In this document: positions 1 through 31,824 of the stretch, piece by piece
Numbering within the stretch: the first letter of the stretch is position 1
Layout: each line of letters starts with the position of its first letter
DNA from: Thermincola carboxydiphila
GTDB taxonomy: Bacteria > Bacillota > Thermincolia > Thermincolales > UBA2595
Direction: 5' to 3'
NCBI GenBank assembly: GCA_016841045.1
Contig: JAENZX010000012.1
Location: forward strand, 1-64,000
Length of the DNA: 64,000 nucleotides
Translations under genes and position numbers: made by a program
The notes under the pieces: generated by a model
The model's input: the letters and a program-made list of their open reading frames with translations, nothing else
Told to the model about the DNA's origin: nothing
Database searches by the model: none

Positions 1-1180
1 TGCTGCTACTGCTGTTACTGTAGGTACAGCAGTTGTTCCTGACGGTAATACCACACTGTAGGTTGTTACTGCCGGGTCAAACCCGCTTATCATAGTTCCG
101 TCTACCATCAGGCTGCTTAAGGTCGCATCACTGCTTGCAGCTACACTAAAGTTGATTGAGTAAGTCTTAATCGTAACTCTGTCTTCTGCAGTAACTTTCA
201 CTGTTGCTGTTCCTGCTACACTATCAGCCTGGATTATCGCCAGTTGTGCGTTTCCATCTGCTGCTAGTGCTGTGACTGTAGGTACAGCAGTTGTTCCTGA
301 CGGTAATACCACATCGTAGGCTAGTACTGCAGGATCAAATCCGCTTATCATATTTCCATTTACCATCAAGCTGCTTAAGGTTGCATCACTGTTCGCGGCT
401 ACACTAAAGTTTATTGTGTAAGTCTTAATCGTAACTCTGTCTTCTGCAGTAACTTTCACTGTTGCTGTTCCTGCTACACTATCAGCCTGGGTCACTACCA
501 CTTGTGCGTTTCCATCTGCTGCTAATGCTGTTACTGTAGGTACAGCAGTTGTTCCTGACGGTAGTACCACATCGTAGGTTGTTACTGCAGGATCAAATCC
601 GCTTATCATATTTCCATTTACCATCAAGCTGCTTAAGGTTGCATCACTGTTCGCGGCTACACTAAAGTTAATTGTGTAAGTCTTAGTTGTTACTCCGTCT
701 TCTGCTATAACTGCCACTGTTGCTGTTCCTGTTACGCTTGCAGCCTGGGTTATCGCCAGTTGTGCGTTTCCATCTGCTGCTACTGCTGTTACTGTAGGTA
801 CAGCAGTTGTTCCTGACGGTAATACCACATCGTAGGCTAGTACTGCAGGATCAAATCCGCTTATCATATTTCCATTTACCATCAAGCTGCTTAAGGTTGC
901 ATCACTGTTCGCGGCTACACTAAAGTTGATTGTGTAAGTCTTAGTTGTCACTCCGTCTTCCGCAGTAACTGCCACGGCTGCGGTTCCTGTTACACCTGCG
1001 GCCTGGATTACCTCAAGTTGTGCTTTTCCATCTGCTGCAACTGCTGTTACATTTGGAACAGTGGTTGTTCCGTAAGGCAGCTCCACATTATAGGTTGTTA
1101 CTGCCGAGTCAAATCCAGCTATCTCACTTCCGTCTACCATCAGGCTGCCTAAGATTGCATTATTATTCTTTACAGCTACT
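1..1180 (-). repeat. 258-bp tandem repeats (86-residue cadherin-like units)
   Basis: The landmark TACAGCAGTTGTTCCTGAC on the plus strand occurs at 25, 283, 541 and 799, and its diverged form falls at about 1057: an exact 258-bp period. Each unit encodes 86 residues of the form SDATLSSLMVNG...GFDPAV...LPSGTTAVPTV...VTAEDxVTxKTYTINFSVA. Adjacent units look nearly identical at DNA level, in contrast to the rest of the gene. The array continues past the left edge, so the unit number is unknown. Confidence 0.92.
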
Positions 1181-4100
1181 GTTCCTATAGTCTCTGCTAG
1201 TACTGCTCCCCCTACTTCTACCAATTCTAAGGTGTATCCATAGGTTCCTGGTTCATTGAAGGTTACCTTAAACTGACTGGTTACATCTCCTAACGGGAAG
1301 CCTGTACTTGGACCATACCATGCTGCTCCGTTGCTATCAAAGACCAACGGGTAGTACTGACTGTCGTTTACTTCATAGTACTTAAGACTTACATAATTCC
1401 TCTGTGCCGGGTCATTCAATTTTATTCTTACCCTTACTAACTTACCCACGTCACTCTTGGCAGCGGTAGTTACCTGGAATTCTTTCTCTTCACCCCGGGT
1501 GAATGTCGGAACCATGTTAGAACTGATTGTCGGTGCAGCATATTTCACCCGGAAACGCAAGTTATATGTCCTTTGGGTAGTTCCGTCTGCTGCTGTTACC
1601 ACAACAACTGCAGCATCATCAAGGCTGGACGGTTGAGTAATGCAAACACTGGCATTGGCGTCAGTGGCAACAGCAGTTACGGTAGGTAAAACAGTCGTTC
1701 CGTAAGGCAGTTCTACCGTATAAAGGGCCACTGCTGAATCAAATCCTTCAACAGATACTCCATTAACCATTAATGCGCTTAAAGTTGCAACATTGTTATT
1801 AGCTACATTGAAGTCAATGGAATAGGTTTTCTTCGTTATTCCATCTTCCGCTGTTACTGTAACCACTGCCATTCCTGATACTGTTGCAGCCTGAGTTACT
1901 TTCATCTCTGATCGGCTGTCATTTACTGCTGCACTGATTGTAGGTACTTCAGTGGTACCCGATGGCAGGGTAATGCTGTAGTTCAACAAATCAGGTCTAA
2001 ATCCTGAAATCGTCTGACCGTTAACCGTAAGGTCACTCAGTGCAGCATCAGTACTGAAACTGGGTCCCACACCGGTAATTTCTGTCAACTGAGCTTCTGT
2101 TGGTTCACTATGAACCCCCAGCGCATTTATTGCAGTTGCGGTGAACTCATAACTACCTTCTTTGTACATTAGCACAGTGCCTTCGAACTCACCACTTGGT
2201 GCTACAGGGAATACCCCTGTAGGAATCCCGTTAGCCCAGATAGCTGCAAATGGGCTGCCATATACCATACCGGATACTGTAACTATATTTGGCGTTGAAG
2301 AATCCGGACCTGTTACAGTAAACCCAATTGGTGTCTGCGGTACAGACGTATCCAGCACTAATGTAAATGGTGATGTATAAACTAATGAATTATACACAGA
2401 ACTTGCTACATCGGATGACCATCCGGCTCCGGTAATATGTGTTGGGAATTGCCCTGTCATTGCCTGTAGACCAGGATTGATGTTTTCTCCATTTACTGTC
2501 ACCTTAACCGTACCCTGATATGAACCATCAGGCAGGCCTTCAGGGACTGTAAAGCGGCCAAATACGTTCAATCCTCCACTAGGCGGCAAGCTGTTTGGTG
2601 GAGTAGTCTCATCACTCAGCACAAATCTAACATTATTCGCCGGGATGGTATTCCCCTTATCATCTGTCAGATCACTTATCTCATAGCTTAACCCACTTAT
2701 ACCGTACTGGTTCCCGGTTTCAAAGGTCTGGATACTAAAGGCTGCATCACGATTAGAGCTGTAAACAACTGTCGGTATAGTTATATCCGGAACAGTTCCT
2801 AATACCGGCACCTGTAAAGTCCCTAATGTATAGAATGCCGATGGCGAATCGCCGTAAACAGATACATCAACTCGATACTGTCCTGCTGCCGGGTCAATTA
2901 TTCGTACATAATCACCGTTGTTAATTTGTTTTCCAACAGCAGCGCCAATAATTTCGTTAGTTACTTCAGGGCCTCCAACAATAGCTGTAGTTCGATTACC
3001 AGCCGGGTCATAAAGGTTCCATTTGAATGAAGTTCCTGGCTGAGCCGCGAGGAAGACTCTAAGTTCCTTAGTTTGAGGCGCAACACTGATTACTTGTTCA
3101 TCTTTCTCACCGCTAGAAATTTCACGTCCTAAAGGCTGTGCAGCTTTGAATGCTGACCGGGCGGCATTGATTTCAGCCTGAGTTCCTGCGTAGAATCTGG
3201 TAAGATACGGACCTTGAGTTCCGCCAATTGACATGGTTCCTGGTTCAGATACATCAAAAGTTAAAACAGCGTCGTATCCTGCCGCATCAATCAACGTTGA
3301 TCGTGCCACAACAAATGGAATTTTAATTATAGCTGTTTCTCCGGGGAGTACAGATACTGCGCCACCCCCGTTTGAATTAACTAACCCACTATTAGCGTAA
3401 ATAGATACTGACGGTGCAACATCAAGTAATCCTGTATGGTCATTGCGTACCACTAGAACTGCTTCTGACATTATAGTTTCTTCGTCTACCGGAATAACAA
3501 CATTGGGTACCTGGAAGCTTAGTACAGTCAAGGGCAGAGGCGGGTCAATCTTGCGCCATTCATCTACTGCCTTCAGGACTCCCAGAGTTGATTTAGCCAC
3601 ACCGACCTCACGGGAAAGAGTGCGCCCGATTACTTCATAATTACTAGCCAAATTATTTCCAACCATTCTAAAGTTCTGAGACGCTATGTCACTGATAGCC
3701 CCTTCCAGTTGGCCGATAGCATCACTATAGTAATTGGTCCAGGTATCCATTGCAAATGACACGGATACTCCTACTATACCTCCGGATAAACCACCCATCA
3801 AAGAGGTCATCATGTTGGCGTAAGCACCCATAAATTTATAAGTGTTGACCAGGTACTTGTAGTTGACCGTATTGTAGCAGCTGGCTAAAGTCTTATAAAA
3901 TTCGGTTTGTGCTTTGTAAGTCTCACCGAGGTTAAAGTTTACAGGGACAATTTTCTCCTGGTCTCCATCGTACATCCAGAGGTTTGGATAAATGCCTTGA
4001 CTCCATCCTCTTTCGAGCTTACTGTTTACACTATCGTAAAAGTCAATTAAAACTGATGAAGGATAGTAAGACGGTGCCTCAGCAGGGTTGTTAATGTATT

Positions 4101-7100
4101 TATCCAAAATTGCCCTTGACTGATCAAATAAACTGGTTACTTCCTCCTGCATTCCGAAGACATTCAGCCTTTGGGCCTTTTCCAATTCCTCCATCATAAA
4201 CAATTTCATTAATTCAGGAGAATCCGGCAGATAGTTTCTATCTGAACCAGATACGCTGCCCCTATCAACCTTGGCATAGAAGGGCATATATTTGATAGCT
4301 TCTGATACAAGATATTTGGCCCGCTGCTTTTCCGATACAGCCGTGACTCTACTTACAAAATCACTTATTGTCTGGGCATCCAGCTCTTTATTATGCTGCT
4401 CTTTGACATAATTGGCCAGTTCCTGACCCATTTGAGCCGGGTCAGCCGCATTGGCTCTTGAAGCAAGACCTCCTAAGGCTACAGACCACTGGGGAAGTTG
4501 GTCATATACACCTAAGACCTGCTTATGATCAAACAAGGCTGTATAGAGTTCACTCAATTTAGGTATCTTAGAGGTAACTAAGTCCAATACTCCCTTACCG
4601 GTCTGTAAGTCAACCAACCCCAGCGGAATCTTTTTATCAGTTAAATACTTATCAACTTTTACCTTTTCTTGTTTCAGTTCTTCGAGTTCCTGCTGCCGCT
4701 GGAGTAGAGCCTGTAATAGCTTTAAGGGTTCATTTGCCCATATTGTGTGCTCAATGTGCAGTTCCCGCAGCCTTTGAAGGTTGGGCTTTATATCCTCAGG
4801 CGCATTTTCCAGCATATTTGTAAGTTCACTGCTCGCGAGGATTGCATTTCCTTTAGCTTGTGCAAACCACTCTTTACCTTTACGGAACCATTCATCCTTG
4901 GTAGCTCCGGAGTGCGTCTGAGCGCTGCTTAGAGCTGTCCCAGCCTGGTCCCTATACAAAGTCTCTAGCTCAAAGTAGTTCAAATAAGCCTCTGCTTCTG
5001 TATCCCAATTGTAGTCAGGCCTGTTGCCAAGTTGGGCAACCAAAACAGCCATATCTTTTGCAACTTTTTGGGCTCTGGCTAGGTTTTTGGGATTTTCCTT
5101 TAACAGTTCATTAGCTAATTTATTAACCTCTTCTTCTTTAGTGCTAATACTGTTTATGATTTCTTTTCTTTTGGACAGGTACATCTCCAACAGCATTAAC
5201 TCATCTTCAGACATAGAGTCAAGTGAGTCAGTCATAGCTTTTAAATCACGCCAGGTTTGGGGTGCATACCCAGGTACACCCACTATTTTCTGCAGATAAG
5301 AGTGGATATCCGATTTAACAGCATCTTTCCAAAACTTCCACGGATTATCAAGCTCAGTAAACTTATCTACTGTTAAGACATTCGTATTAGTATTAATCGG
5401 AACCTCACTTTTACTATATATCGGTGCTTTAAATGACCTGGCAAGACCTATTACGTTCAACATGGTCTTGGTAATTTCCATGATGCTTCCCCAAGCAGTG
5501 GCTGCAGCTTCTTGTCTAGCATAATCATAAGCATCAAGCACAACACCACTTAAGTCGCTGCTGCTTCGCTCAAGAATCTTCTTAACATTTGTTTCGAGAC
5601 GGTCAATCTGAGCTTTTAGATTAATAAAGTCTCCATAAACAGCCTGTTGAACAGTAATTGGTACCGTAATAATGTTTGGATTAGCCAGGTTTCTGGAAGT
5701 TTCCACTGTCAATGTGGGCAGTTTGGCGAACTGGTCTAAGTCCTGACTAATAACCACAAAGTACCCTGATGCTGTTTCGTTAGGTGCTATATCCCCAAGA
5801 CTCAGTGAAATTGGAGATTCCTGCAGCCCCGCATGTTCCGAAAATGCCGAAACAACTTTAGTGAACTGAGATGCTTCTGTGGGCAATGACGGTATACCTA
5901 TCTTAACATTGCGAGCAGTTCCTCTACCTGCATTGGTTGCCGTCACTACAAAGTTATAAAGCCCTTCTTCCTGTTTTTGTAAAGAATAACTTACGAATAA
6001 TTTGGGCTGTGGTTCAACCCTAATGGATTTACCCCTGGTATACCCTTCATAAAGCTGTCCGTCCAGAACAAAGCTGTAATGAATGTATGCATTAAAAGTT
6101 GCCGCTTCCTGCATATATTCAGCAAGATCAAAAATCTGTCTGTCTAATTCGTCATTAAACATTCTTGTTTCAGCTAAACCTGGATCTGCATTCAACTGCC
6201 AAAGTACTGACAGCTTGCTTTCCGGCAGCAGTGTCCAATCATAAACAGAATTCCCTAACCAATCATCATATAAACCGTAAACCTCATCTATTACTGTCGA
6301 ATCCTCTTCCGATGATATGGTACTTAAACTAAGGGGTGCAGTAGAGGAATTGTTCGGCAGTGTAGTCTCATGGTCAACTACCCCACCATTAACCACCATA
6401 ATTGGCTTGATATTAAATCTGTTGTTGTAAACCCTTGCACCTTCGGAGAGTTTCCCATTTTGTTCTATTACCCCATCAGTAACTACCACTTCGAGATTTA
6501 TGTTTTCAATCAGCTTATACTTTGATGGGTTATAAAGATTGAAGTTAGCAGTGAATACTTCCTGCTCTGTGGCAACTTCTTGTGAGAATGCCAGGTCTGC
6601 CACAGCAGGCCCCACAGGTTCAGGTTTTTCCGGCACAGCTGAATTAATTGTAGACAAGAAATTTGTGCTGAAATACCTGGTAACTCCGCCCTGCATATAC
6701 ATCATTTCATACAGTATAGAAGCCTTCGGACGCGGATACCAGGGATAGGTTCTACGTTTTTTGACAGGTGGTGTCTTAGATTGTTTTGTAAAAGCTGCCG
6801 TTACTTTAGTTTTCTGCCTATCTTCATCCGAAACTGGAATATTTCTGGCATCTGCCGGCTGGTAATGGAACCTTACCGGAACCTTGAAGGAGAAAGCTTC
6901 CCATTCTCCGGCAATGTTGAAACGGTTACCAGTCAGTAAAATACTGAAATCGAAATTATAATTTTGTCCATAGAACTTCGGTATCCTGTTGTCAGGTACA
7001 AAAGGCTGAGAAGTAACTCTGTTGGGAACAATGTTATATTTATAGATTCTGGTGCTGTCATCATAGACCGTTTTTGTTACAGTACTGTTAAAACCTAAGA

Positions 7101-19100: not shown

Positions 19101-22100
19101 TACCTGCTGTTACATCTGTATCCTTAAAGGTAGCAGTGGTATTACGAAGTTTATCTGCAACTAAGACAAAAGCTCCCCTTTGTTCCTGCTCATAAACTGC
19201 GCGATAAACACGGTATCCACCTATCTTAGTCCCGGGAACAAGCTGCCATGCGAGATTTACCTCTACCTGTGCCGGGTCAGCAGTAACCTCTGTCGGTGCA
19301 GCAGGAAGTATCACGTTAGCCGTAAACTGCGCCTCTGCAGGGACTTTGCTGGCCTGCCCTGTGAGAGTGAATGTATGGGTACCAGGAGAGACGTTCTTTA
19401 CAAAACGCCAGGCCATTGTTACATTACCTTCGTTATTTGTAGGAGCTGCCGCAACATAAATGCTGCCATCCATATAAAGAGATGTATATTCCCCTGGCCT
19501 AAAGCCTGTGCCCTGGAAAGTCAGGGTAGCTTCTGGTCCGGCAGAGTCTGGGGTTATCGTCAGCGTTGGGGTATAACCTCTTACGGTCACTTCCTTCTCC
19601 GGACTCTTAGCGCTCACATTGCCAATATCGTCTATAGAAGCTACTGTATAGAAATATGTTGCTCCCACGTTTATCGAGTAATCTGAATAAGAAGTAATGT
19701 TTCCAGCGATTGTATTAATAGCATTCCACTGTTCACTGCCTGCAGTACGGCGATAAATTGTGTATTTCAGGAGATCCTCAGACGCAACCGGATTCCATGA
19801 TAAATTAACCCGTCCAGAATAAGAAACAGCATTAAAACCGTTTGGTACAGGTGGTGCAGTATTATCAAGGGTAATGGTGATAACTTTATAGTCTGAATTT
19901 CCACCCTTGTCGACCGCAGCTGCTCTAATGCGGTACACTCCATTTAATCCTGCAGTATTCCATTGATTAGTCGCCTTATAGGAGGAACCATCCCAATATG
20001 CTGAAACAGTCCTAATGTTGCTCCAAGAATCACTGCCTTCAGGTGAATATTCAAAGGAAATGGTCTCAACTTTCAGGTTATCAGATGCAGCTGCTTCCAG
20101 AGAAACTATTCCTGATGCTCTTGTTCCATCTACAGGTTTTAGGGAAATCATTAGGGGAGCTTCTGTATCACCAATAGGGCTAACACTAACTGCCTGGGAT
20201 AAACCACTCTCGTTTCCGAGGCTGTCTACTGAAGACACAGCGAAGAAAACTGTCTGCCCAGCGTCAAGGTCTGTCTTGGTGGCTGTATTTATTGAATTAC
20301 TTACAGTAGTCCAATAAGACAGATTACTATCAGTCGTACCAAAGTACACCTTGTAACTCTTTAAGTCCTCATTAGTTACAGGCTGCCAGCTAACCACAGC
20401 AGAATACAGACCGCCCGTTACCTGTACACCCTGAGGTACAGATGGCGCTGTGTTATCAAACCTATAAGTCTGTACTACAGGCACACTTTCATTACCCAAT
20501 GAGTCACGGGCAATAGCCCGCACCTGAACTTCCCCTTCAAGTGAAGAAGAATTCCAATTGAAGGTGGTGGCACCCAGAGTAGCATTAGTGGCAATTGAGT
20601 TCCAAGTGCTGCCGTCAGTTGAATAATCTAGAGTTATGTTGGAAAGAGTTGTGTTATCAGTTGCTTCAACGGTTATGTCAGCACTAGAACCAAACAGGGT
20701 TCCAGCAGCAGGCAGAATGCTGGTTACAACAGGCGGCGTCGTATCAACTACTGCCGCAGCTGCTGCAATATTGGAAGCTGCTCCCTCCTGATCAAAATTA
20801 TCAACCGCTAAAACTTTATAATAATAGGTTAATCCGGTCTGAACAGAAGAATCTGTATAGGTGGTATTAGTACTGCCAGAAACATAGGTCTTATAATCGA
20901 AAGGACCATTAACACTGTTGGAGCGATAAATATTGTATTTCTTAACATCTGTATCCTGAGGCGCTTCCCAGTTTAATATTATACTGTTGGTACCAAAAGA
21001 GGCCATAAGATTTGACGGTGAAACCGGAGCCGTTCTGTCAACAGTATAATTATTAATACTGGTCGCCATATTCCCGGACGCGTCATAGACAATATATCTG
21101 ACAGCATATATTCCACTGGTAAGGGGAGTTAGGTCCCAGTCGTCATAAAAATAACTGGAATATCTTGTGTTAGAACTGCTAACCGGGCTCCAGGCCACAC
21201 CGTCTGTTGAATAGTCAAAAGCAGCTGTGGAACCCGTCGTACTAGTGTTATCAGAGTAGTAGACATATAATCTTTGACTCTTGGCACCACCTATTGTAGT
21301 CCCATCTGTGGGGTTGACTCTTGTTATTGTTGGCGGTACCAGGTCTGCCAAAGTAGTAGCAGTAAGTTCTTCTGAGCGGGCTTTGTTTCCGAAATTGTCT
21401 TTTGTTTCGATTATATAATAATATGTTGTAGCAGGAGCAAGGCTGGTATTGGTATAGGTATTTGTTGTTTTGTAATATACACTGCCAACTGAACTGTAGG
21501 GACCTCCCGGAGTAGTACTTCGGTAAACAGTATAAGCATAGTAGTATGGTAAATCAGGGTCAGTAACAGGCTCCCATTCTAAGGAGATACTTCCCTCAGT
21601 TGCGGTATATTGGAGGTAAGTTGCTGCACTTACAGTAAGATCCAATTCCCAAGCAGTATCCAGATAACCCTCGTTCCCCACGGTATCCGAGGCCTTAACC
21701 CTAACATTATAATTACCGGAACTCAATCCTTCAGTATTCCAATAGAAATAGCTCTGATAATAAGTAGTATAATTACTAATACCAGATTTTGTACCATTAA
21801 TTGCAGTCCAAGTATTTCCCCCATCCGTAGAATACTCTGCGTCCATATTGGCAACAGTTTTGTTATCCGTTGCACGGGCATAAAAATTTACCTGTGATCC
21901 ACCTGTTAATGAGCCGCTTCCTGGACTGTTTATAGTAATTTGTGTAACTACAGGAGGGGTCATGTCATTTAGAGGAGCAGCCGAAACCACTTCTGTATCT
22001 GCAAAGTTACCCCTAGAGTCAAAATGCCGAATTTTATAGTAGTAGGTAGTTCCTATCTGTCCCGAAGTATCAGTATAGGAAGCAGCAGCTTTATCATATA

Positions 22101-25100
22101 TCGTATAGATAGAGCTGAAACTTCCAGTAAGCCCGGTTGATCTCAATACCTGGTAATATGAAAAATCTGTATCAGGTACAGCATCCCAGGTTAGGGTAAC
22201 ATTGCCCTCACCGGGAGTCGCGGTTACATTATTCGGTGCTGTCGCATAAACATCCAAAACAACGTTGCGCTCAACAGATACATAGTTTCCTGCAAAATCT
22301 GTCGCAGTAAATCTCAACATGTAATCGCCAGAGACGAGATTGTCAGTATTCCAAGTCGCTGAAGCCGAATAATAATATGGCGAATAATATTGTTTGTAAG
22401 CACTCGATGTCCCAATTAGCTGCCATGTACTGCCGGCATCTGAAGAATATTCAAAAGTAAAATTCTTCACGCCTTTAGGAGAGTTGTCTTCAGCCGAAGC
22501 AGACAGATTAATTGACGGTCCGCCAATAACCGAACCCGACGTTGAAGGTGTCGTTCCTTTGATTAGCGGAGGAACAGAATCTCCCAGCGGCATTGTAATT
22601 ACTTCATTAGAATAAGCGCTGGTATTACCTACTTTATCCTCAGCCTGAACTACATAATAATAGTAAACACTGCTGCTAACGGATGTATCTACATAAGAAA
22701 GTGAACTGGTATATGTAAGATATTGATAACCGGTACCTGGTTGTGTGGACCTATATATATAATAAGGTGAACTTGCCAGGTCTGTTTCGGTATTTGCTGT
22801 CCAATTAAGAGTGATTTGGTCAACTCCAGGAACAGCTGTCAAGTTTTGAGGAGCAGCAGGTGCAGTATTGTCTAACTTCCAAATTCGAACAGGAGCACCG
22901 GAAGATGAGTTACCAGCCCTGTCGAAGGCTGTCGCTCTAAACTTATAGGCTCCATCAGAAAGTTTTCCGTGAAGTCCAACCGGCATGGTTGTATCCCACT
23001 TAAACGTACCTGAAGAGTAATAACTGCTGTGATACAATTGATCAATGGTGAGGCGGCCTATCTCGTTCCAGGTTAATTCATCATCTAGTGATACCTCAAA
23101 AACAATCCTGTCAATTTTGGAATAATAACCATCCCTGGCTTCAACGCTGATGGAATATTCCTTACCCGATAAGGTTGAATTATCATAAGGATATAACGAG
23201 TAAATTGTTGGCACAGATGTATCAAGAGTAACAGTCTGCACCTTTGTATGAGTTCCATTTGCATTGGTTGCTTTAACTGTTATAGTATTTGATCCCTCTG
23301 TCAAAGTCAGGCTGTTAGAAAAAGCACCATAAACATCCACAGCAACAGAAACTCCGTTAACCGTAAGAGCAGCCCCCGGCTCTGTCAGTCCCATTAGGTC
23401 ATAATTGCTGTTATGTGTATAAACGAAGGGACCACCTTCAAGAGAAATAGGGGGACCAGTATAGTACTCGGCAAAAACACTTGCGGCTTGGCTTTTATTC
23501 CCCGCCTGATCATAGGCATAGATTATATATTTATAAATTTTTTCAAGTTGATTGTAGTTATCTGTCTTAGTAGTCTCAGGGTCATAAATATACCATGAAT
23601 TATTGTAATACCAATTATCTCCACTGGCATATTGCTTCTCAACATAATAACGGTAAGCTCCCTCAACCCTGTCCCAAGTTAATTTAATCCCAGTAGAAAT
23701 TGTTTCTGCTTTAAAGTTACCGGGAACTGTCGGAGCTACCCGGTCAACGGTGACATTCCTAATAGCAGAACTTGACCGCCCCTCAATATCAGTAGCTGTT
23801 GCACGGAATTGGTAAACGGCTTCCCCAACTGTACTGACATCCCATGTACCGTTCACGGTAAAATAATTATTACTTTTGGTAGGAGTTGAGTTAGATAAGT
23901 TTAAAGCCGTCCAGTTTTGGCCGTCGGTAGAAATCTCTACTAATATAGAGTTGATTTCCAAATTATCGATAAACTGAATGCTATAATATATAGAACTGCC
24001 GTTGGTAATATAGTTATCTGATGGACTAAAACTGTTAAGTACCGGCTTATCTACAGGTATTACACCAAATACTGATTCAGAACCGGTTGAGGTGTTACCT
24101 GCAGCATCCACCACCAAAATTCGGTATTCATATTGCAAGCCTGGAGTAACCGAATAATCAGTATAAGAATTGTCCTTTAGGTTGTAATTTACCGTACTCC
24201 ATGAATAGTCAGAGTACATCCGCCGTTGAACAACCACACCGTAGTCTTCGACAGGGGTTATCCAATTTAAAACCAGGGCAGTGTTATCACTTTTTACTTC
24301 CAATAAAAGACCCGTTACATTACTTGGAGCCAAAGTATCTTTATATACTTCTTTTAAAACAGATAAAGTATTGCCCAGTTCATCCTTGGCTACTGCCTGG
24401 AACCAAAGATTTCCATCCGGTAGACTTCTTAGATCATACCTTGTTTCCCGATAACCTTGATTATAGTTGGAATCCCAGTAAAAGCCATAATCATAATTCG
24501 CTAAAGCTTCCAGGGAGTTCCAATTTTCACCATCTGTTGAGTAGTTATGTTCAATACCTGTAATTGAATTCTGGGCAGCGAAATAGCTTTCCACCCAAAA
24601 GTATTGGGCATTTGCCGTATTCACGATATTATTGTCAGTAAGGTCCCACCGTTTAAAAGTTATCGGACCAGATGCAGTCAAGCTTCCAGTAACCGTCGGT
24701 TCGTCAATGCTCTCATTCCAGTATGTATCCCAGGTCCTAACTTTATAGGTATAAGATTTATAAAGGTTAACTCCCCAATCGGTATAAGAATTGCCGGAGT
24801 AAGTATACCCAATATAACTCCAATACCCGTCGGTAGAATTGCTGTAATTGACCCATCTGTGAATTTCAGCATAGTCCATCTCTGCAGGGTTAGTCCAAGT
24901 TAAGACCAGAGCATTATTTGCAGCGTTTGGTGCCACAGCTAAATTGCTGACGTTTTCTGAAACAGTATCGAATGTAATTTCTGTCTCTGTCGAAAACACA
25001 TTGGCATCTGCGTCGGTAGCTGTAGCCTTTAGATAAAATGAATCCTGAGGAAGGGAACTCAGGTCAACCCTGATTCCCCTCTGCCACTCCTTGTCGTAAC

Positions 25101-26481
25101 TATCATTGTAAAGCCCGTAATCTGATGTAATAAATGAGTCCATCGAATACCAGTTTATCTGGTCGTAAGAATATACATAGTCAATTGCAGTAATGGTTTT
25201 ACTAGCTTTGAAATATGAACTGATATAGAAATAATCTAAATAATCAGCTGTGACAACACCATCATTGGTATTATCCCAATAGGAAAAATAAATAGGTTGG
25301 TCTTTAAGACTGCCACTTGCTGTAGGAGGATTTATAGAAACATTTCCGTTCTTGTCATAAGCTGCAACTTTATAGGTATAAGAGACAAAAGGCTCTACAT
25401 TAGCATCAGTAAGGGTCGTTGCCGATGTATTACCTAGTCTATTCCAATAACCGCCTGATGAACCTTCATAATTATATGTAACATACTTATATACTTCAGC
25501 GTGCTCAAACTCAGAAGGATTCTTCCAACTTATTATCAGGGAATTATTGTTTTCATTTGGAACAACTGTAACGTCATAAACATTTTCGGCCACAGTATCT
25601 TTATGTACTGTTGTCTCCGCCGATAAGGTGTTACCAGTTAAATTTACAGCCTGAGCCTTAAGAGTAAACTGTCCATCAGGTAAATGGGATAAATTGGTGT
25701 AGATAGATCTAAACCATGAACCGCTTTGTGTATCGAAGTCCACCCCATAATCATAAGCGGGAGTGACATTTTGCCATATGACACCATCCGTTGAATATGT
25801 ATAATCTATGACTGTAATATCTTCAACAGATTTGAAGGCGGCGGAAAAATTCCATTCTCCAACATTATGAGAATTGATGATACCATCATTCTGCATATAC
25901 CAATTAAAAAACGTAATAAGCCCCTGATCATACACCTGACTGAAGACTTGGGGAGATTCCGGTTCGTAAACATAATCGTAAACCGAGCTGCTAAACGGAT
26001 TATAAACTTGATTGTAGACTGAACTTGCGACAGTACCGGTAGTAGTTTGGGAATCAGAATCTGAACTGGAGGTAGTTGTCTGACCGTCGAAAATTAGCGT
26101 GGTGGTAGCATTTTTCTGCGAGGTAATTGTACTGCTGTCTTTAGTGTCTGTGGTGAATGTATTGTTATCATCGGTTTCTGTGGTAATTGTATTGTTATCA
26201 TTGGTGTCTGTGGTGACTTGTGTATTATCTGAGGTTGGCGTAGTGCTGTAGACTTCCTGCGAAATAGTTCCATTATTTTGTTCTTCTGAGTCGGAAGTGC
26301 TGCTTTCTTTACTTTCCTTTGGCGGGGAAGCTGTATCTTCGTAAACATTTTGCGTAACGTTGTCCCCGGATGAAGCTATGGCCATAGAAGGCATCGCTCC
26401 TCCCCAGGAGGTAAATAAAAATAAGAACAAGATTACCCAGCTAACGGTCTTGTTTAAATTTTTCATTCGGTAGAATAACAT
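1..26481 (-). CDS. Giant secreted multidomain surface protein (FN3/PKD/CARDB/cadherin-like), C-terminus beyond window
   Basis: A single minus-strand frame starts at ATG 26481 after GGGAGAG and stays open to base 1, giving at least 8,827 codons with no stop seen. Translations sampled near 26, 20, 16, 12.5, 9, 5.6 and 3 kb and at 1-50 all fall in the same frame and read as coherent domains. Residues 1-38 form a signal peptide (basic MLFYRMKNLNK start, hydrophobic core, Ala-rich end). Then follow a Ser/Thr/Asp linker, about fifteen FN3-like modules alternating with Ig-like modules, two copies of a PKD plus four-CARDB block, a helical region, and cadherin-like beta-sandwich repeats. Such modules are typical of adhesive or stalk-like extracellular proteins, so a cell-surface or matrix role is inferred; no enzyme motif was recognised. 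Cysteine is very rare. No anchor (SLH, LPXTG) is visible, but the C-terminus is missing. It lies just downstream of a truncated dcw cluster and has its own upstream region. Confidence 0.93.
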   Translation of the reverse strand, partial: MLFYRMKNLNKTVSWVILFLFLFTSWGGAMPSMAIASSGDNVTQNVYEDTASPPKESKESSTSDSEEQNNGTISQEVYSTTPTSDNTQVTTDTNDNNTITTETDDNNTFTTDTKDSSTITSQKNATTTLIFDGQTTTSSSDSDSQTTTGTVASSVYNQVYNPFSSSVYDYVYEPESPQVFSQVYDQGLITFFNWYMQNDGIINSHNVGEWNFSAAFKSVEDITVIDYTYSTDGVIWQNVTPAYDYGVDFDTQSGSWFRSIYTNLSHLPDGQFTLKAQAVNLTGNTLSAETTVHKDTVAENVYDVTVVPNENNNSLIISWKNPSEFEHAEVYKYVTYNYEGSSGGYWNRLGNTSATTLTDANVEPFVSYTYKVAAYDKNGNVSINPPTASGSLKDQPIYFSYWDNTNDGVVTADYLDYFYISSYFKASKTITAIDYVYSYDQINWYSMDSFITSDYGLYNDSYDKEWQRGIRVDLSSLPQDSFYLKATATDADANVFSTETEITFDTVSENVSNLAVAPNAANNALVLTWTNPAEMDYAEIHRWVNYSNSTDGYWSYIGYTYSGNSYTDWGVNLYKSYTYKVRTWDTYWNESIDEPTVTGSLTASGPITFKRWDLTDNNIVNTANAQYFWVESYFAAQNSITGIEHNYSTDGENWNSLEALANYDYGFYWDSNYNQGYRETRYDLRSLPDGNLWFQAVAKDELGNTLSVLKEVYKDTLAPSNVTGLLLEVKSDNTALVLNWITPVEDYGVVVQRRMYSDYSWSTVNYNLKDNSYTDYSVTPGLQYEYRILVVDAAGNTSTGSESVFGVIPVDKPVLNSFSPSDNYITNGSSIYYSIQFIDNLEINSILVEISTDGQNWTALNLSNSTPTKSNNYFTVNGTWDVSTVGEAVYQFRATATDIEGRSSSAIRNVTVDRVAPTVPGNFKAETISTGIKLTWDRVEGAYRYYVEKQYASGDNWYYNNSWYIYDPETTKTDNYNQLEKIYKYIIYAYDQAGNKSQAASVFAEYYTGPPISLEGGPFVYTHNSNYDLMGLTEPGAALTVNGVSVAVDVYGAFSNSLTLTEGSNTITVKATNANGTHTKVQTVTLDTSVPTIYSLYPYDNSTLSGKEYSISVEARDGYYSKIDRIVFEVSLDDELTWNEIGRLTIDQLYHSSYYSSGTFKWDTTMPVGLHGKLSDGAYKFRATAFDRAGNSSSGAPVRIWKLDNTAPAAPQNLTAVPGVDQITLNWTANTETDLASSPYYIYRSTQPGTGYQYLTYTSSLSYVDTSVSSSVYYYYVVQAEDKVGNTSAYSNEVITMPLGDSVPPLIKGTTPSTSGSVIGGPSINLSASAEDNSPKGVKNFTFEYSSDAGSTWQLIGTSSAYKQYYSPYYYSASATWNTDNLVSGDYMLRFTATDFAGNYVSVERNVVLDVYATAPNNVTATPGEGNVTLTWDAVPDTDFSYYQVLRSTGLTGSFSSIYTIYDKAAASYTDTSGQIGTTYYYKIRHFDSRGNFADTEVVSAAPLNDMTPPVVTQITINSPGSGSLTGGSQVNFYARATDNKTVANMDAEYSTDGGNTWTAINGTKSGISNYTTYYQSYFYWNTEGLSSGNYNVRVKASDTVGNEGYLDTAWELDLTVSAATYLQYTATEGSISLEWEPVTDPDLPYYYAYTVYRSTTPGGPYSSVGSVYYKTTNTYTNTSLAPATTYYYIIETKDNFGNKARSEELTATTLADLVPPTITRVNPTDGTTIGGAKSQRLYVYYSDNTSTTGSTAAFDYSTDGVAWSPVSSSNTRYSSYFYDDWDLTPLTSGIYAVRYIVYDASGNMATSINNYTVDRTAPVSPSNLMASFGTNSIILNWEAPQDTDVKKYNIYRSNSVNGPFDYKTYVSGSTNTTYTDSSVQTGLTYYYKVLAVDNFDQEGAASNIAAAAAVVDTTPPVVTSILPAAGTLFGSSADITVEATDNTTLSNITLDYSTDGSTWNSIATNATLGATTFNWNSSSLEGEVQVRAIARDSLGNESVPVVQTYRFDNTAPSVPQGVQVTGGLYSAVVSWQPVTNEDLKSYKVYFGTTDSNLSYWTTVSNSINTATKTDLDAGQTVFFAVSSVDSLGNESGLSQAVSVSPIGDTEAPLMISLKPVDGTRASGIVSLEAAASDNLKVETISFEYSPEGSDSWSNIRTVSAYWDGSSYKATNQWNTAGLNGVYRIRAAAVDKGGNSDYKVITITLDNTAPPVPNGFNAVSYSGRVNLSWNPVASEDLLKYTIYRRTAGSEQWNAINTIAGNITSYSDYSINVGATYFYTVASIDDIGNVSAKSPEKEVTVRGYTPTLTITPDSAGPEATLTFQGTGFRPGEYTSLYMDGSIYVAAAPTNNEGNVTMAWRFVKNVSPGTHTFTLTGQASKVPAEAQFTANVILPAAPTEVTADPAQVEVNLAWQLVPGTKIGGYRVYRAVYEQEQRGAFVLVADKLRNTTATFKDTDVTAGIKYSYQVAAIDIYGNEGIRSEAVEATPFEDIVPPTVTNFKTSRVGDVLTLSVDVTDNIGVTVASFAYNSNNTWKDIPPVTVNSGRGAKATAKVNWNTSHLADGYYDIRVRVYDEAGNASIPLSSIVYIRSSAPEVPLYLTALGGQMKVDVVWARVYDDELDSYRLYRSVNGGEFTAITDTSLRSYIDTNVEAGSSYTYKVTALDTYGHESVAAVSDTVVVQPDTAAPVISGFLPVDGSRVSGNVNISAVATDNVSLLGVDFAYSADGIMWSNIALNTKGTVTWATYGQVPDGVFKIRAMARDAAGNEGTLIGQYTVDNTAPQPPVLTGSSSELKVTLNWQPVGINDDFDHFRVYRSTTSDGVYQLIARTEDTVFADTSMPIGIDSYYTVTSVDDLGNESHNSNIIQVRPGRDISGPVIDLFEPVEGTPLRNQVTLSAHAADNVGVAKYIFEFRPINENVSSEVYSGVISGLGYLTAAILGETPWTVLGEVYGNGNENSILAWDTLAIGPGAVALYPDGNYQIRVTAVDVNGNSTEKIQVYSLANDPPSPPKDLRVDPAEWKLVFSWAPIIRADVDHYVVYRKAEAEPWETLVNYTTSNVHVDKMTDPQKLYYYRVSVVNDLGRESAVSDVVYGRSLHETTLPVVTDIKPVEYSRFNSHADITVKGTDLVGIRNFRYEYGVLGNSTFIPDDLVWHEISVDNNPVSTGGTYLSNLSWDVSFLAPGYYAIKVTAVNYGNKENSTVKKYLIDRTPPSTPTEVIVSDPQSGGELAISWLRSESTDTDHYDIYRSVDPSAAFSKVGETKSLILRDLNLENGKIYYYMVKAVDGAGNASDFSNRAGAIPTSKSDLALLEIQAEPTAPTYGREARIAAKITNLGYARAKGTVTFTLENADSKVIIGSTNIELATGATGNAAITWTIPQGLTSPAKVSAVVETDVGSVDIGPNNNSAVQTFRLNTAPQAVITAPVSVKSGDMVSLDARTSSDSDGQIVSYVWKTGDENIEKKGALAAHMYQIPGDYNILLTVKDNDNAETKTSVSIHVYENRPDLKVTNVSWNPIDPVEGDVVQINAAIGNNGYGPARMGFLVGFYIDGEYLGYRKVDQHLDLGQTVNVPFNWVATPGIHVLKVVANDILDNLKETDLNNNSKAVALSSKKLNFPDVEVTSVTWSANGVELSSEDPFVYRAKVANKGSSAAERFFVSLYIDGQWVAKQHVNYLSPGGEQDLSFVLKPKSGIHTITIKADDPIPALVELETDNNSMSATTPEFDVTYPKLAIDNITWRPVETELTDGTSLTFETKIANTSAINITHRFWVDFLVDDTLVRSLPVDRLSAGEEKQLWVRWPVTPGVHTVKVIADSKGTVIEGVYGAAVETQTEDLSIIYPDLTISDITWSPLTLKYGTNTSFVVRVSNQSVATAFDNFDIALYVDDKKVSSAPVMGLRGHSTAIVGLSYGPNVVGNHEFKVVVDDGNKLTLNPPGPDTRRTWKRSFEIADALQMKVSSPQEDPELGFAMYTTGQDYIPIRADLHLGSNPLRNLGPEDGVSVSYVLESASENGEVITGYLGYDSIKGEFKGELPIVRMETGMYTLTLEGTDGVESVRRDVDILIIGEMIGFVETQKEDYQQEEPVTLSGELRYKDGTPAANMGAILEIQSGYGPRKIPIETDSDGRFEYTKEFGAGSYSASIKVGFISYGSTPFTVWGLAAKPANLTVVASKNSQFSKIIEVYNPTVGKSVTGLTAQLIDLTPGSNVRAVLDTSTLGTIIAPEESAGVVLNINAPLEVSDTAEYQINFSTAEGAVASTQVKLLLRPAVPFPVLDTKALPLATNPGRELVRTIKLTNKGLGRMSGITVQAPSKLPWVIPQTLGDTELEPGEWTTFDVLVAPSAGTALGYYQDKIIVGDGKYNVSFDIGVEVTTANLGSISFVVQDEGGTRVPNAEITLIGKEPYSQIVNGKESVYYQNFFARTDENGIAAFEDKPIGDYRYVVKSAAIRTISGETQIMPGSEPSFVQVTVENEPVKIEWTVTPTTIADQYDIQLKMIFGANLPTPKFGILPPWITVPTQVDEPMILEATVVNLSLVAVTDVVAEVERENFTDTGISIIGGGYIGEMPAHGSAKIKIRVAPGRYLMKSNEKGEPFNFIRFHGNYVSFDPDTGLPIDPPEEIQAKIPIYNPTPQKVNVDYKMPDGQELKMEIPMGGGGGGGGGGGLGDGMMPGGGDGEGGGIYEVMTLTLDQTATLERQAFNATLKISNGYSTKALQNLAVRVAILDLDGREVTDKMFNIPTGLTGLAALDGSDSLSPGQQMTADWQLIPGEGLGGTNPEGQVYLAKAIISYYIDGRYVETQTQAEEITIMPQPKIKLHYFLPKKVTAGEPFRLGVIAENIGDGWGKNLTIDSGQIKIETNQAGVQADIRIIGTSLGSYNGGGFRLTLGDVAPHSQAGGYWIIKWTSYEDTQDYSKPPTGDFREFTATLSHKDYKGVQLNPLIVGVTTEIIGKDNLFADAKDPDMALTLIDEGYTGFPSYLINMKYGIRLPIYVPETLEVTKQPNPYDRTLKFKVPAPEGDPMAPDTPRYHVLLLKDPLPGAPIRSVQRDVYNDGVYDAFLSHNNTWKANGNLYIVDEVSRDSERYYQSSYMVDFRSGAQITAVEYAQWAFKENPESWEDRYYTWYDIGHLPDEGDMVPIRANIYNTGSEMERGVVQFFVVKEGDEQEIKIGEVSYNVEPLHNDYLYLEKWKPIEGGNYKIIARIKDNDSPEAYGEKPVQVNFRPVADAGVDFFADVLKQARFDGTRSYDKDGYIMNMIWEFGDDESISGMTPTHKYLNSGTYKVKVTVTDNNWASSTAEMQITVRETRADLRVRNILISPENPGEGDTITVTGEVYNGGYKTTDKPFLVSFYVDYKYQNYVRVTEPIAPGQSKQVSFTWVNPAGNHMFTIKANDFGHPVDEADFENNQRSIPMDTAKAYFPNLKVLNVNWDGPDDGILGWNDTVTLTAEIENDGTADASSFNAAFFINGEMVRTQNIKELSHEPGYNRVIVGIDWKVTEPGAHTIEVVADSPIPHLVELSQDDNAAELVTPPIKLTYPDLRIKSLVFSPNGGALRPGQPLMVLANIANEGQAATNGPFTVTFYAGGEYLGIRKVGDLAAGMVVNTAFVWNHPESGISEIRAIIDERNDIRETDEENNTYQGLTPNMYVKLPQLLVESVETNPPSGSAKFGDTLTTTVKLKNNGEAPINLGFNTALFVNDKQVGTFATPPGLKQGDTTTGIITWEASITPTAPYYRLSVFADVNGAINVANRVYAKYNTIYEVEDELQVNGWSERTTYTVAEKPVFNMLVKSTDEPWRPLGVIDGVTASVYTYVYAGVVDGVPLGEPILGKTMSYDPVEGVFIGELDPSAAGSGMIPGNYLAYITVQRGSEEKTSLIPFKLVKDYSVTVDITKVTYNVDEPVQMVGQVTDLAGNPLPDVPVLLVVVGEEEFACDLVSDQDGRFTSSLLLPEGYGGTYSLTAYASLEGAQKASKSKSFTVEGPYLAVPEKIKVTQGYTVKQEVALSNVGTLEMTGFGLSSSLPSEAGLDAKFTGDIPQSLVPYESGNFTLEISAAQDTTPGEYEVYHKVLTAEGFSTTVTTSVYVEEAYPEYRIDVNGEQSKKKIAVALRPGETSTKVVHIANIGTAPIKNIVVTPPAKLPWVTISASGTELVLPIEGRTIRDQNTLASILVTVTPEIQVPPGYYEDKITINSNAGIAEVPLRIYVGADKVGTIVLQMVDQDYIPIPEAAVSLYGPHSTPGEQPATPVVHREKAGSDGTVTFMNIQAGAYTLTAKADYHKDLQVTIEVPALIDLEPIDYIMEKIPFTLGYDYRTINETQSAIISGGDYEEAVLRATMPPSPKIPILEANFPGSEFWYTYTLDNASSSFAVRNPANEGSVYDVQAQVELPAEMPKGSVALRLKNQIGGGPVLNLDEFTPGATEEIYWEVDIDKFYDSAEIVALSAYGDYQVTFPVGVTPERIAAWEKILGFNSTVTKTVYDDSTRIYKYNIVPNRVTSQPFVPDNRIPKFYGQNYNFDFSILLTGNRFNIAGEWEAFSFKVPVRFHYQPADARNIPVSDEDRQKTKVTAAFTKQSKTPPVKKRRTYPWYPRPKASILYEMMYMQGGVTRYFSTNFLSTINSAVPEKPEPVGPAVADLAFSQEVATEQEVFTANFNLYNPSKYKLIENINLEVVVTDGVIEQNGKLSEGARVYNNRFNIKPIMVVNGGVVDHETTLPNNSSTAPLSLSTISSEEDSTVIDEVYGLYDDWLGNSVYDWTLLPESKLSVLWQLNADPGLAETRMFNDELDRQIFDLAEYMQEAATFNAYIHYSFVLDGQLYEGYTRGKSIRVEPQPKLFVSYSLQKQEEGLYNFVVTATNAGRGTARNVKIGIPSLPTEASQFTKVVSAFSEHAGLQESPISLSLGDIAPNETASGYFVVISQDLDQFAKLPTLTVETSRNLANPNIITVPITVQQAVYGDFINLKAQIDRLETNVKKILERSSSDLSGVVLDAYDYARQEAAATAWGSIMEITKTMLNVIGLARSFKAPIYSKSEVPINTNTNVLTVDKFTELDNPWKFWKDAVKSDIHSYLQKIVGVPGYAPQTWRDLKAMTDSLDSMSEDELMLLEMYLSKRKEIINSISTKEEEVNKLANELLKENPKNLARAQKVAKDMAVLVAQLGNRPDYNWDTEAEAYLNYFELETLYRDQAGTALSSAQTHSGATKDEWFRKGKEWFAQAKGNAILASSELTNMLENAPEDIKPNLQRLRELHIEHTIWANEPLKLLQALLQRQQELEELKQEKVKVDKYLTDKKIPLGLVDLQTGKGVLDLVTSKIPKLSELYTALFDHKQVLGVYDQLPQWSVALGGLASRANAADPAQMGQELANYVKEQHNKELDAQTISDFVSRVTAVSEKQRAKYLVSEAIKYMPFYAKVDRGSVSGSDRNYLPDSPELMKLFMMEELEKAQRLNVFGMQEEVTSLFDQSRAILDKYINNPAEAPSYYPSSVLIDFYDSVNSKLERGWSQGIYPNLWMYDGDQEKIVPVNFNLGETYKAQTEFYKTLASCYNTVNYKYLVNTYKFMGAYANMMTSLMGGLSGGIVGVSVSFAMDTWTNYYSDAIGQLEGAISDIASQNFRMVGNNLASNYEVIGRTLSREVGVAKSTLGVLKAVDEWRKIDPPLPLTVLSFQVPNVVIPVDEETIMSEAVLVVRNDHTGLLDVAPSVSIYANSGLVNSNGGGAVSVLPGETAIIKIPFVVARSTLIDAAGYDAVLTFDVSEPGTMSIGGTQGPYLTRFYAGTQAEINAARSAFKAAQPLGREISSGEKDEQVISVAPQTKELRVFLAAQPGTSFKWNLYDPAGNRTTAIVGGPEVTNEIIGAAVGKQINNGDYVRIIDPAAGQYRVDVSVYGDSPSAFYTLGTLQVPVLGTVPDITIPTVVYSSNRDAAFSIQTFETGNQYGISGLSYEISDLTDDKGNTIPANNVRFVLSDETTPPNSLPPSGGLNVFGRFTVPEGLPDGSYQGTVKVTVNGENINPGLQAMTGQFPTHITGAGWSSDVASSVYNSLVYTSPFTLVLDTSVPQTPIGFTVTGPDSSTPNIVTVSGMVYGSPFAAIWANGIPTGVFPVAPSGEFEGTVLMYKEGSYEFTATAINALGVHSEPTEAQLTEITGVGPSFSTDAALSDLTVNGQTISGFRPDLLNYSITLPSGTTEVPTISAAVNDSRSEMKVTQAATVSGMAVVTVTAEDGITKKTYSIDFNVANNNVATLSALMVNGVSVEGFDSAVALYTVELPYGTTVLPTVTAVATDANASVCITQPSSLDDAAVVVVTAADGTTQRTYNLRFRVKYAAPTISSNMVPTFTRGEEKEFQVTTAAKSDVGKLVRVRIKLNDPAQRNYVSLKYYEVNDSQYYPLVFDSNGAAWYGPSTGFPLGDVTSQFKVTFNEPGTYGYTLELVEVGGAVLAETIGTVAVKNNNAILGSLMVDGSEIAGFDSAVTTYNVELPYGTTTVPNVTAVAADGKAQLEVIQAAGVTGTAAVAVTAEDGVTTKTYTINFSVAANSDATLSSLMVNGNMISGFDPAVLAYDVVLPSGTTAVPTVTAVAADGNAQLAITQAASVTGTATVAVIAEDGVTTKTYTINFSVAANSDATLSSLMVNGNMISGFDPAVTTYDVVLPSGTTAVPTVTALAADGNAQVVVTQADSVAGTATVKVTAEDRVTIKTYTINFSVAANSDATLSSLMVNGNMISGFDPAVLAYDVVLPSGTTAVPTVTALAADGNAQLAIIQADSVAGTATVKVTAEDRVTIKTYSINFSVAASSDATLSSLMVDGTMISGFDPAVTTYSVVLPSGTTAVPTVTAVAA
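1180..2075 (-). other. Diverged cadherin-like beta-sandwich repeats and one inserted beta module
   Basis: Two diverged units of the type ATLSxLxVNGxxxxGFxxxxxxYxVxLPxGTT lie at about 1540-2075. They are followed by a different beta module (about 1180-1540, with YEVNDSQYYPLVF). The pattern matches the cadherin-like beta-sandwich family, which is common in Firmicute surface proteins. These units are the older relatives of the near-identical repeats that follow. Confidence 0.7.
3550..5640 (-). other. Helical, coiled-coil-like island in the giant protein
   Basis: About 700 residues with helical character interrupt the beta modules. They are rich in Leu, Lys, Glu, Ala and Gln, with stretches such as LKAQIDRLETNVKKILER and LQRQQELEELKQEKVKV. 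Near its C-terminal end (about 3.76-3.85 kb) is a Gly- and Met-rich hydrophobic stretch, MMTSLMGGLSGGIVGVSV, that could be a membrane-active or buried helix. I do not recognise a family. Confidence 0.6.
5640..10840 (-). repeat. Large intragenic duplication, copy 2
   Basis: This repeats copy 1 in the same order. A PKD domain (10590-10840, with DGYIMNMIWEFGDD) is followed by four CARDB-like domains beginning RADLRV, FPNLKV, YPDLRI and LPQLLV, a regulatory-like module (VQMVGQVTDLAGNPLP), a PAKLPWV module, a second regulatory-like module, and a final module starting at PQPKLFVSYS with LSLGDIAPNETASGYF. It is about 650 bp longer than copy 1 through extra beta modules. Divergence is high at DNA level and clear at protein level. 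Confidence 0.75.
11690..16235 (-). repeat. Large intragenic duplication, copy 1 (PKD, 4 CARDB-like, regulatory-like modules)
   Basis: Module order from the N-terminal side: a PKD domain (15990-16235, with DGQIVSYVWKTGD), four CARDB-like domains of about 110 residues beginning RPDLKV, FPDVEV, YPKLAI and YPDLTI, a carboxypeptidase-regulatory-like module (about 14.0-14.3 kb), NPCBM/NEW-like linker modules with the phrase PSKLPWV, another regulatory-like module, a Gly-rich stretch, and a final module starting at PQPKIKLHYF and containing LTLGDVAPHSQAGGYW. The same order recurs at 5640-10840, so the block is an ancient duplication within the gene. Confidence 0.75.
12455..12537 (-). other. Poly-glycine hinge in the giant protein
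   Basis: The minus strand encodes Met followed by ten Gly residues, then LGDGMMPGGGDGEGGG. The DNA is an irregular GGC/GGT run. It sits inside duplication copy 1 and has no counterpart in copy 2. It probably forms a flexible hinge. Confidence 0.8.
16590..25930 (-). other. Array of alternating FN3-like and Ig-like modules in the giant protein
   Basis: About fifteen fibronectin-III-like modules follow one another, with patterns such as LNWxP, YxVYRS, YYYxVxAxDxxGNxS and TAPS/TPP linkers. Nearly every one is preceded by an Ig-like module of about 100 residues of the type FxYSTDGxxW...LxDGxYxxRAxAxDxxGN. The modules nearest the N-terminus (24.0-25.9 kb) are unusually rich in Tyr, Trp and Asn. 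One pair is interrupted by an IPT/TIG-like insertion at about 19.3-19.6 kb. Boundaries are by eye and the count may be off by one or two. Confidence 0.75.
26120..26235 (-). repeat. Short tandem repeat coding for 10-residue Thr/Asp/Asn units
   Basis: Inside the linker after the signal peptide, a unit of about 30 bp is repeated roughly three times. It encodes decapeptides of the form TETDDNNTFT and TDTKDSSTIT. The surrounding linker (residues about 40-185) is rich in Ser, Thr, Asp and Gln and looks unstructured. It probably acts as a spacer between the wall or membrane exit point and the first folded module. Confidence 0.7.
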
Positions 26482-26608
26482 ACAAATCTCTCCCATCAAT
26501 AATATCGAAGTGAATATTTATCCATTTATAGAATAATTTATATACATAATTTATGAATGTTAAGTATTGGCTAAAAAGCTAAATTTTCCTTCAAAATCAC
26601 CACAACTT

Positions 26609-26672: not shown

Positions 26673-26719
26673 CAAAAATAAAAACCTGCTCAAAACGGCT
26701 TTAAACCGCTATGAGCAGG
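26673..26719 (-). terminator. Intrinsic terminator of the dcw operon after truncated murA
   Basis: Read on the minus strand, CCTGCTCA pairs with TGAGCAGG around an inner CGG/CCG stem. The hairpin is followed by TTTTTATTTTT. It begins about 30 bp after the murA stop and separates the dcw operon from the giant gene. Confidence 0.9.
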
Positions 26720-26749
26720 CTGGTTAATCGTTATGATAAATCTGTTTTT

Positions 26750-27109
26750 CTATAAAGGGTCACACCCACCGGGGTAAGCCACCTTAACTTTGCCGAAACG
26801 GCCAAGCAATGCACCCATTACCAGGTTTGAAGCTCTCATCCTTCGCATCAGGTCTTCGGCAATTTCCAGACTCTGTACCTGACTACTGTCTATTTTGAGC
26901 ATACTTCCTTCACATTCTATTTTAGCTCCAAGATAGATCAGAACTTCTTTCATAACTTTTACATCCAATAGTTTCGGGACTTCATAAATTACACTTATGC
27001 TTTGGGAAAGCAAGCTCGCTGCAAGTATAGGCAGTATTGCATTTTTAGCGCCATTCACTCTGACCTTTCCCTTTAGTCGTTTGCCTCCAATGACAATCAA
27101 CTTCTCCAT
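26750..27109 (-). pseudogene. murA: Truncated murA (UDP-GlcNAc 1-carboxyvinyltransferase), N-terminal 119 residues
   Basis: The start is well supported by GGAGG 8 bp before the ATG. Residues 1-116 match MurA: the substrate lysine in VNGAKNAILP (Lys22), the MRRMRASNLVMGALLGRFG segment, and the catalytic cysteine loop YPGGC (Cys116). The reading frame then ends DPL-stop, where a full-length enzyme of about 420 residues would continue with an IGxRPxDLH motif. No continuation was found in the other frames downstream, so this is a truncation and not a frameshift. Most of the two-domain enolpyruvyl transferase fold is missing, so it should be inactive, and another murA would be needed elsewhere. 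It sits 21 bp after murB in the operon and is followed at once by a terminator. Confidence 0.88.
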
Positions 27110-27130
27110 TTTGCCACCTCCAAATCCGGG

Positions 27131-28039
27131 CTACTCACCAACAACCCGGACTTCCAATGTTAGCTCAATATTGAATTTTTCAAGGACAAGCTGTTTTATA
27201 CGTTCAATGAGGTTAAGTACATCAGAGGCTGCAGCTTCACCGGTGTTGACAATGAAATTTGCATGTTTTTCAGAAACCATGGCCCCACCAACCCTCATTC
27301 CCTTGCCTCCTACTTGTTCAATCAGCCATCCTGCCCACTGTCCAGGAGGATTGGCAAATACGCTTCCGGCATTAGGAAATTCAAGGGGTTGTGACTTCCT
27401 TCGCTTTGCTAAGTTATCCTGGCTTATTTCCCTGATTTGCTCCGGTACACCTCTTGACAAATCAAATTCAGCGCCCAGAACAATCAGTCCCTTATCTTTT
27501 AAATTGCTCTTTCTATATTCAAAACCTATTTCATGGTTGCTCATGGAAAGGATTTGACCATCAGAGCCTAATACTGTCACCTCCCGGACCACGTCGCTCA
27601 TACATTTACCGTGTGCACCGGCATTCATACATATAGCACCGCCTATTGATGCTGGAATTCCTGCCGCAAATTCAAGCCCGCTAAGCCCTTTCTCCGCAGC
27701 CAGCTTAGAGGCAAGGGGCACCAGAGCCCCAGCTTCAGCTTTCAATGAAGTATCATTAATTTCGAGTTTATTGAACTTACTTGATATTTTAAGGACAATA
27801 CCCCGTATACCATTGTCCCTGACCAGTAAATTGGATCCATTACCCACGACTGTGACAGGTATTCCATTCTCTATTGCTAATTCAACACATAGCTTAATAT
27901 CATCAATCCCGGATGGAACCACCATTAAGTCTGCAGGGCCGCCAATTCGCCACGTGGTATGCTTCCTCATAGCTTCTGAATAAGAAACAGTTCCCGTTAT
28001 GCGGCTTTCCAGGAAGTGCCCTACCTCCCGAAGGTCCAT
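27131..28039 (-). CDS. murB: UDP-N-acetylenolpyruvoylglucosamine reductase
   Basis: MurB reduces enolpyruvyl-UDP-GlcNAc to UDP-MurNAc with NADPH and FAD in the cytoplasm. The 302-residue protein has the FAD-binding VVGNGSNLLVRD loop, the AGIPASIGGAICMNAGAHG segment, and the type II (short) MurB ending with NAGSVFANP and the HANFIVN motif. AGAGG lies 6 bp before the ATG. It begins 3 bp after murC, so the two are translationally linked. Its order next to murC and murA is the usual one in Clostridia. Confidence 0.97.
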   Translation of the reverse strand: MDLREVGHFLESRITGTVSYSEAMRKHTTWRIGGPADLMVVPSGIDDIKLCVELAIENGIPVTVVGNGSNLLVRDNGIRGIVLKISSKFNKLEINDTSLKAEAGALVPLASKLAAEKGLSGLEFAAGIPASIGGAICMNAGAHGKCMSDVVREVTVLGSDGQILSMSNHEIGFEYRKSNLKDKGLIVLGAEFDLSRGVPEQIREISQDNLAKRRKSQPLEFPNAGSVFANPPGQWAGWLIEQVGGKGMRVGGAMVSEKHANFIVNTGEAAASDVLNLIERIKQLVLEKFNIELTLEVRVVGE

Positions 28040-28042
28040 AGT

Positions 28043-31818: not shown

Positions 31819-31824
31819 AAAGAA

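Follow-up and report, generated by a model that had tools for sequence, protein, structure and literature searches.

The window, by which we mean the whole 64,000-nucleotide stretch of Thermincola carboxydiphila DNA analysed here (positions 1-64000 of contig C4 in a draft assembly of 4.16 Mb and 75 contigs), carries on its minus strand most of a giant gene that is real, single and, as far as it is visible, free of stop codons. Its product defines a family of giant surface proteins in little-known anaerobes, apparently not described before, with members in at least six anaerobe-type genomes. We regard the product as probably a Sec-secreted surface protein or fibre that acts in contact or adhesion. 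The features of the gene are listed below.

1..26481, minus strand: giant open reading frame, ATG at 26481, 8,827 codons, running off the contig at base 1
26488..26494, minus strand: Shine-Dalgarno-like GGGAGAG, 6 bases before ATG 26481, read from the sequence
26374..26481, minus strand: signal peptide (MLFYRMKNLNKTVSWVILFLFLFTSWGGAMPSMAIA), hydrophobic N-terminus, cleavage site estimated by eye
25903..26373, minus strand: Asp/Ser/Thr-rich low-complexity linker, including a 30-bp repeat at 26144-26221
16570..25902, minus strand: FN3/bacterial Ig-like array, residues ~200-3310 (Pfam)
16000..16239, minus strand: PKD domain, copy 1 (Pfam)
14650..15975, minus strand: CARDB block, copy 1 (Pfam)
10825..14649, minus strand: conserved core, copy 1, mostly without Pfam match
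12868..13917, minus strand: core module (residues 4195-4544), resembling parts of plasmid-encoded proteins
11629..12441, minus strand: 'LERQAF' module, 270 residues (4687-4957), common to Eleftheria, Methylomonas and Nostoc plasmid proteins
10582..10833, minus strand: PKD domain, copy 2 (Pfam)
9250..10566, minus strand: CARDB block, copy 2 (Pfam)
5635..9249, minus strand: diverged core, copy 2 (profile comparison)
3526..5634, minus strand: segment of ~700 residues, predicted all-helical, without Pfam match (structure model, modest confidence)
2059..3525, minus strand: predicted beta-sandwich region (structure model and domain search)
1..2058, minus strand: cadherin-like (PF12733) region (Pfam)

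As an earlier note on this DNA had proposed, the frame runs unbroken from 26481 to base 1, with zero stops in 8,827 codons, and is unfinished. At the observed GC content of 43.4% the chance of such a stop-free run is about 10^-226; the remaining five frames over the stretch hold 334-889 stops each. An alternative start, TTG at 26499, gives 8,833 codons that are likewise stop-free to base 1. The ATG at 26481 is the better-placed start, and residues are numbered here from TTG 26499. The protein visible so far has a computed mass of 961 kDa, a pI of 4.6 and 3 cysteines in its 8,827 residues, and thus exceeds in one frame, unfinished as it is, the 5,000 residues above which bacterial proteins are counted as huge. 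Base 1 is the contig end and lies inside a 258-bp tandem array (1-1160; 4.5 copies, 88% matches) that is truncated there, so the absence of a stop codon is due to the assembly break.

From N- to C-terminus the order is signal peptide, FN3/Ig array, PKD and CARDB, a core of ~1,250 residues, a second set of PKD, CARDB and core, the helical segment and cadherin-like repeats. Pfam searches and reading of the translation confirm the modules noted before (FN3, Ig-like, PKD, CARDB and cadherin-like, PF12733) as well as the signal peptide; across the protein Pfam also finds carboxypeptidase-regulatory-like domains. Similar N-termini occur in two relatives (G399 and G400, see below). At an E value of 0.01 there was no Pfam match in the first ~800 residues of the FN3/Ig array or in the slices 10900-14499 and 2800-7299. 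A blastp self-comparison of the protein showed no large duplication, and it was a profile comparison that revealed the PKD-CARDB-core block to be present twice (residues 3413-4904 against 5215-6916; 24% identity over 1,443 columns, E 8e-101). Two AlphaFold models reached mean pLDDT values of 66 and 64, and TM-scores of their Foldseek matches against the query were ~0.1; at these values no fold is assigned. The helical segment gave no convincing relative among solved structures. A search of the window against Rfam returned no match.

Collinear family members were found in five other genomes (G398, G399, G400, G038 and G079), with frames of 7,253-9,750 codons. The closest relative, G398 (DUPU01000231.1; 7,253 codons), is 64% identical to the window protein over 6,140 columns, followed by G399 (DUMB01000002.1; 9,255 codons) with 56% over 7,652 columns. 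G400 (JAJUJI010000004.1; 9,750 codons) shows 31% identity over 6,776 columns, and G038 (8,742 codons) and G079 (matching JAAYKD010000070.1; 8,880 codons) 33% each over about 5,500 columns; the last two share 47% over 8,895 columns with each other. The earlier note had named a split of the frame by frameshifts as a possible objection, which is answered by G400: its protein is complete on a 190-kb contig, with 9,744 residues (1.03 MDa) in one frame from signal peptide to stop. Distant members share 44-45% identity in the core (copy 1, residues 4350-5225), which no Pfam family matches. Of 398 genomes of the phylum, only the present one, G038 and G079 were matched by a core query (window 11050-13500). 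Within the window's own family the core was absent from eight genomes, some of them incomplete, and it was present in both genomes examined from the family of G038 and G079. That family is a different one of the same phylum; G038 itself came to light when 61 genomes were searched with the helical part. A scan of genome contigs with the helical segment gave no match, nor did viral contigs. G398, G399, G400 and JAAYKD010000070.1 came from a pattern-based scan of named genomes, so additional members may exist. Labels of the AS08sgBPME type, borne by one named relative, occur in a biogas-reactor genome paper (PMC7038595).

Nonsynonymous and synonymous differences per site are 0.225 and 0.780 between G398 and the window, 0.265 and 0.788 between G399 and the window, and 0.352 and 0.824 between G038 and G079. 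In all three comparisons, whichever 1,000-codon bin is taken, nonsynonymous change is much lower than synonymous change; no dN/dS ratio is given because synonymous sites are saturated. Together with the collinear relatives, these counts bear out the earlier proposal, which had called for such a comparison, of a single giant secreted gene under protein-level selection, and a 26-kb frame has thus been kept in several lineages. The genes flanking the G399 giant gene find their best matches in the examined part of the Thermincola genome at 56-64% identity, close to the 56% of the giant protein itself, a pattern that would fit inheritance by descent plus loss.

On the same strand upstream of the giant gene lie the mur/dcw cluster and then a 119-codon murA fragment. 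The cluster (26753-41181, minus strand) comprises rsmH, a spoVD-type PBP gene, murE, murF, mraY, murD, ftsW/spoVE, murG, murC and murB. The murA fragment is cut just past its PGGC motif, directly before the giant gene, which suggests an insertion or rearrangement at this junction. A terminator-like hairpin with a T run (~26675-26722, minus strand; by eye) lies between the two. The remainder of murA did not turn up in those parts of the genome that were read, and among 60 contig starts and 20 contig ends no partner was seen for either murA or the giant gene.

The C-terminus of the giant protein lies beyond the contig end, and no SLH domain occurs in the 8,827 visible codons. At the end of contig C55 lie cadherin-like repeats and three SLH domains, with no overlap to C4; an end of this type (68% identity) is found in G007 too, on an unrelated protein of 2,162 residues with no shared neighbours. 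C55 is a candidate, unproven, for the C-terminal part, as is C29, another contig end with Ig-like repeats and SLH, for a piece of the giant. Contig C12, with a cadherin/SLH end, was excluded as C-terminus, because it is part of a different gene: its end coincides exactly with one of C30 over 20 bases (L062:1-20, L042:1-20), within Flg_new-type repeats, so C30 and C12 each carry one half of another large SLH gene. Further large surface-type genes of this genome are severed by contig ends on C37 (L141 start), C29 (L172 end), C7 (L175 end) and C55 (L043 end), and contigs C14 (L121:1-540) and C26 (L133:1-350) open with simple repeats, (Ala-Pro)n and (Asn-Thr)n, in open frames.

The five relatives are alike in being collinear with the window protein and differ in their gene neighbourhoods and C-terminal ends, which are of three types. 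In G398 one in-frame TGA (L082:5177-5179, minus strand) is followed by ~150 more codons in the same frame, leading to a CFI-type end, that is, a CFIATAAYGS-type C-terminus with a transmembrane helix and a basic tail. An unfinished cadherin-like array is the second type; the CFI-type end was looked for in the present genome and in G399 and not found. The third type, a short 'AVYDxxGRM'-type stretch, closes the proteins of G400, G038 and G079, where no SLH or CFI-type end was seen, so surface attachment is not universal in the family.

The reading as a surface fibre draws on the signal peptide, the FN3, Ig-like, PKD, CARDB and cadherin-like content without a catalytic domain, the collinear giants, the selection, the 3 cysteines and the CFI-type transmembrane end that the closest relative reaches, though after a TGA. 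Against it count the ends of G400, G038 and G079 and the low confidence of both structure models. Estimated from domain length, the protein might consist of ~80-90 small beta-sandwich domains in a string plus one long helical segment, and the extended chain could span a few hundred nanometres. In this picture the outward-facing parts that touch other cells, surfaces or polymers would be the FN3/Ig array and the conserved core, while the cadherin-like array near the C-terminus would form a stalk of variable length. We infer this extended shape, the surface location, the orientation and the adhesive role from the features above; by domain content, contact or adhesion seems the likeliest role.

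A second reading, compatible with a surface fibre and not opposed to it, comes from plasmids. In tblastn searches of plasmids the core matched Eleftheria terrae, Methylomonas koyamae (two records) and Nostoc. The LERQAF module (residues 4687-4957) matches the plasmid proteins at ~30% identity, and hhalign gives 34% over 254 columns (E 2.1e-43). Module 4195-4544 resembles large Ig proteins of the Eleftheria and Methylomonas plasmid clusters in their C-terminal part, and also part of the Nostoc protein. The Eleftheria cluster (L194:17851-33633) encodes GspE, GspF, GspG, pseudopilins and a secretin fused to a cohesin domain, together with rhodanese-like and transglutaminase-like genes, large Ig proteins and an RHS protein; the Methylomonas koyamae region (L193) has a similar set with cohesin, rhodanese-like and transglutaminase genes. 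It is possible, though we hold it only tentatively, that the giant is the single-chain Gram-positive counterpart of an undescribed Gram-negative multi-protein secreted system, with two core modules that are separate proteins elsewhere fused and duplicated here in a ~1 MDa fibre. The matches of two modules to different proteins of the same clusters suggest in this way that proteins which cooperate elsewhere are united in the giant. On the other hand, just three plasmid-borne examples were seen, module 4195-4544 contains a generic carboxypeptidase-regulatory-like fold, and no partner gene adjoins the giant in the window: secretin, rhodanese-like and transglutaminase-like neighbours are lacking there, with mur/dcw genes upstream and the contig end on the other side. 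If this reading is true, a single chain of ~1 MDa unites modules that are encoded separately beside type II secretion-like genes. In either case a core module that reaches across phyla to secretion-gene clusters offers a concrete, testable target in a domain of 270 residues.

Rather unlikely, in our view, is a structural sheath or S-layer-like coat, in which many copies would lie side by side and cover the cell. The all-beta Ig-type composition would suit it, arrays of Ig domains build the S-layer of Deinococcus radiodurans (PMC10120038), and the genome holds 74 SLH-domain matches, but SLH on the giant protein itself is unproven and a main coat protein would not usually be so patchily present among genomes of the same family. 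That the protein is a secreted enzyme or a cellulosome-like scaffold is very improbable: the FN3 region does match the NCBIfam exoglucanase CbhB model, yet with a score of 114.9 against a cut-off of 1950, and Pfam finds no catalytic, glycoside hydrolase, cohesin (the mark of a scaffoldin) or dockerin domain above threshold in the window protein. That several genes were fused by assembly or sequencing error, or that the gene is decaying, is scarcely credible given collinear giants elsewhere, one of them complete on its long contig, and selection along the whole frame, even if the contig is a draft and the closest relative has its one in-frame TGA near the C-terminus.

Returning to the surface protein that we favour, its size class and module types are already known (PMC11573180, PMC12863079). 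The earlier note had thought both size and arrangement of modules unusual; the arrangement indeed fits no single catalogued family, whereas size alone is not novel, because bacteria are already known to make giant surface proteins (PMC11573180, PMC12863079). In an open-access literature search we found no description of the family or its core. What is new here is the architecture, the duplicated core outside Pfam and NCBIfam, and the cross-phylum module. The proteins that share the LERQAF module with the giant (Eleftheria terrae WP_301260257.1, Methylomonas koyamae WP_198402810.1 and Nostoc WP_256872037.1) have 1,340 or 4,600 residues and belong to Gram-negative-type bacteria, the Eleftheria one lying beside type II secretion-like genes. 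Huge bacterial proteins of more than 5,000 residues are surveyed in PMC11573180; the sections of that survey covered here describe proteins of the same size class with extracellular cadherin-, Ig- and carboxypeptidase-regulatory-type domains like those of the giant, and not its architecture or core. Giant1-5 of Apilactobacillus kunkeei are giant extracellular surface proteins of 3,000-8,000 residues (PMC12863079), which are encoded by five consecutive genes and carry an N-terminal beta-solenoid, whereas the giant described here is a single gene whose visible N-terminal array is of the FN3/Ig type, its first ~800 residues being without a Pfam match.
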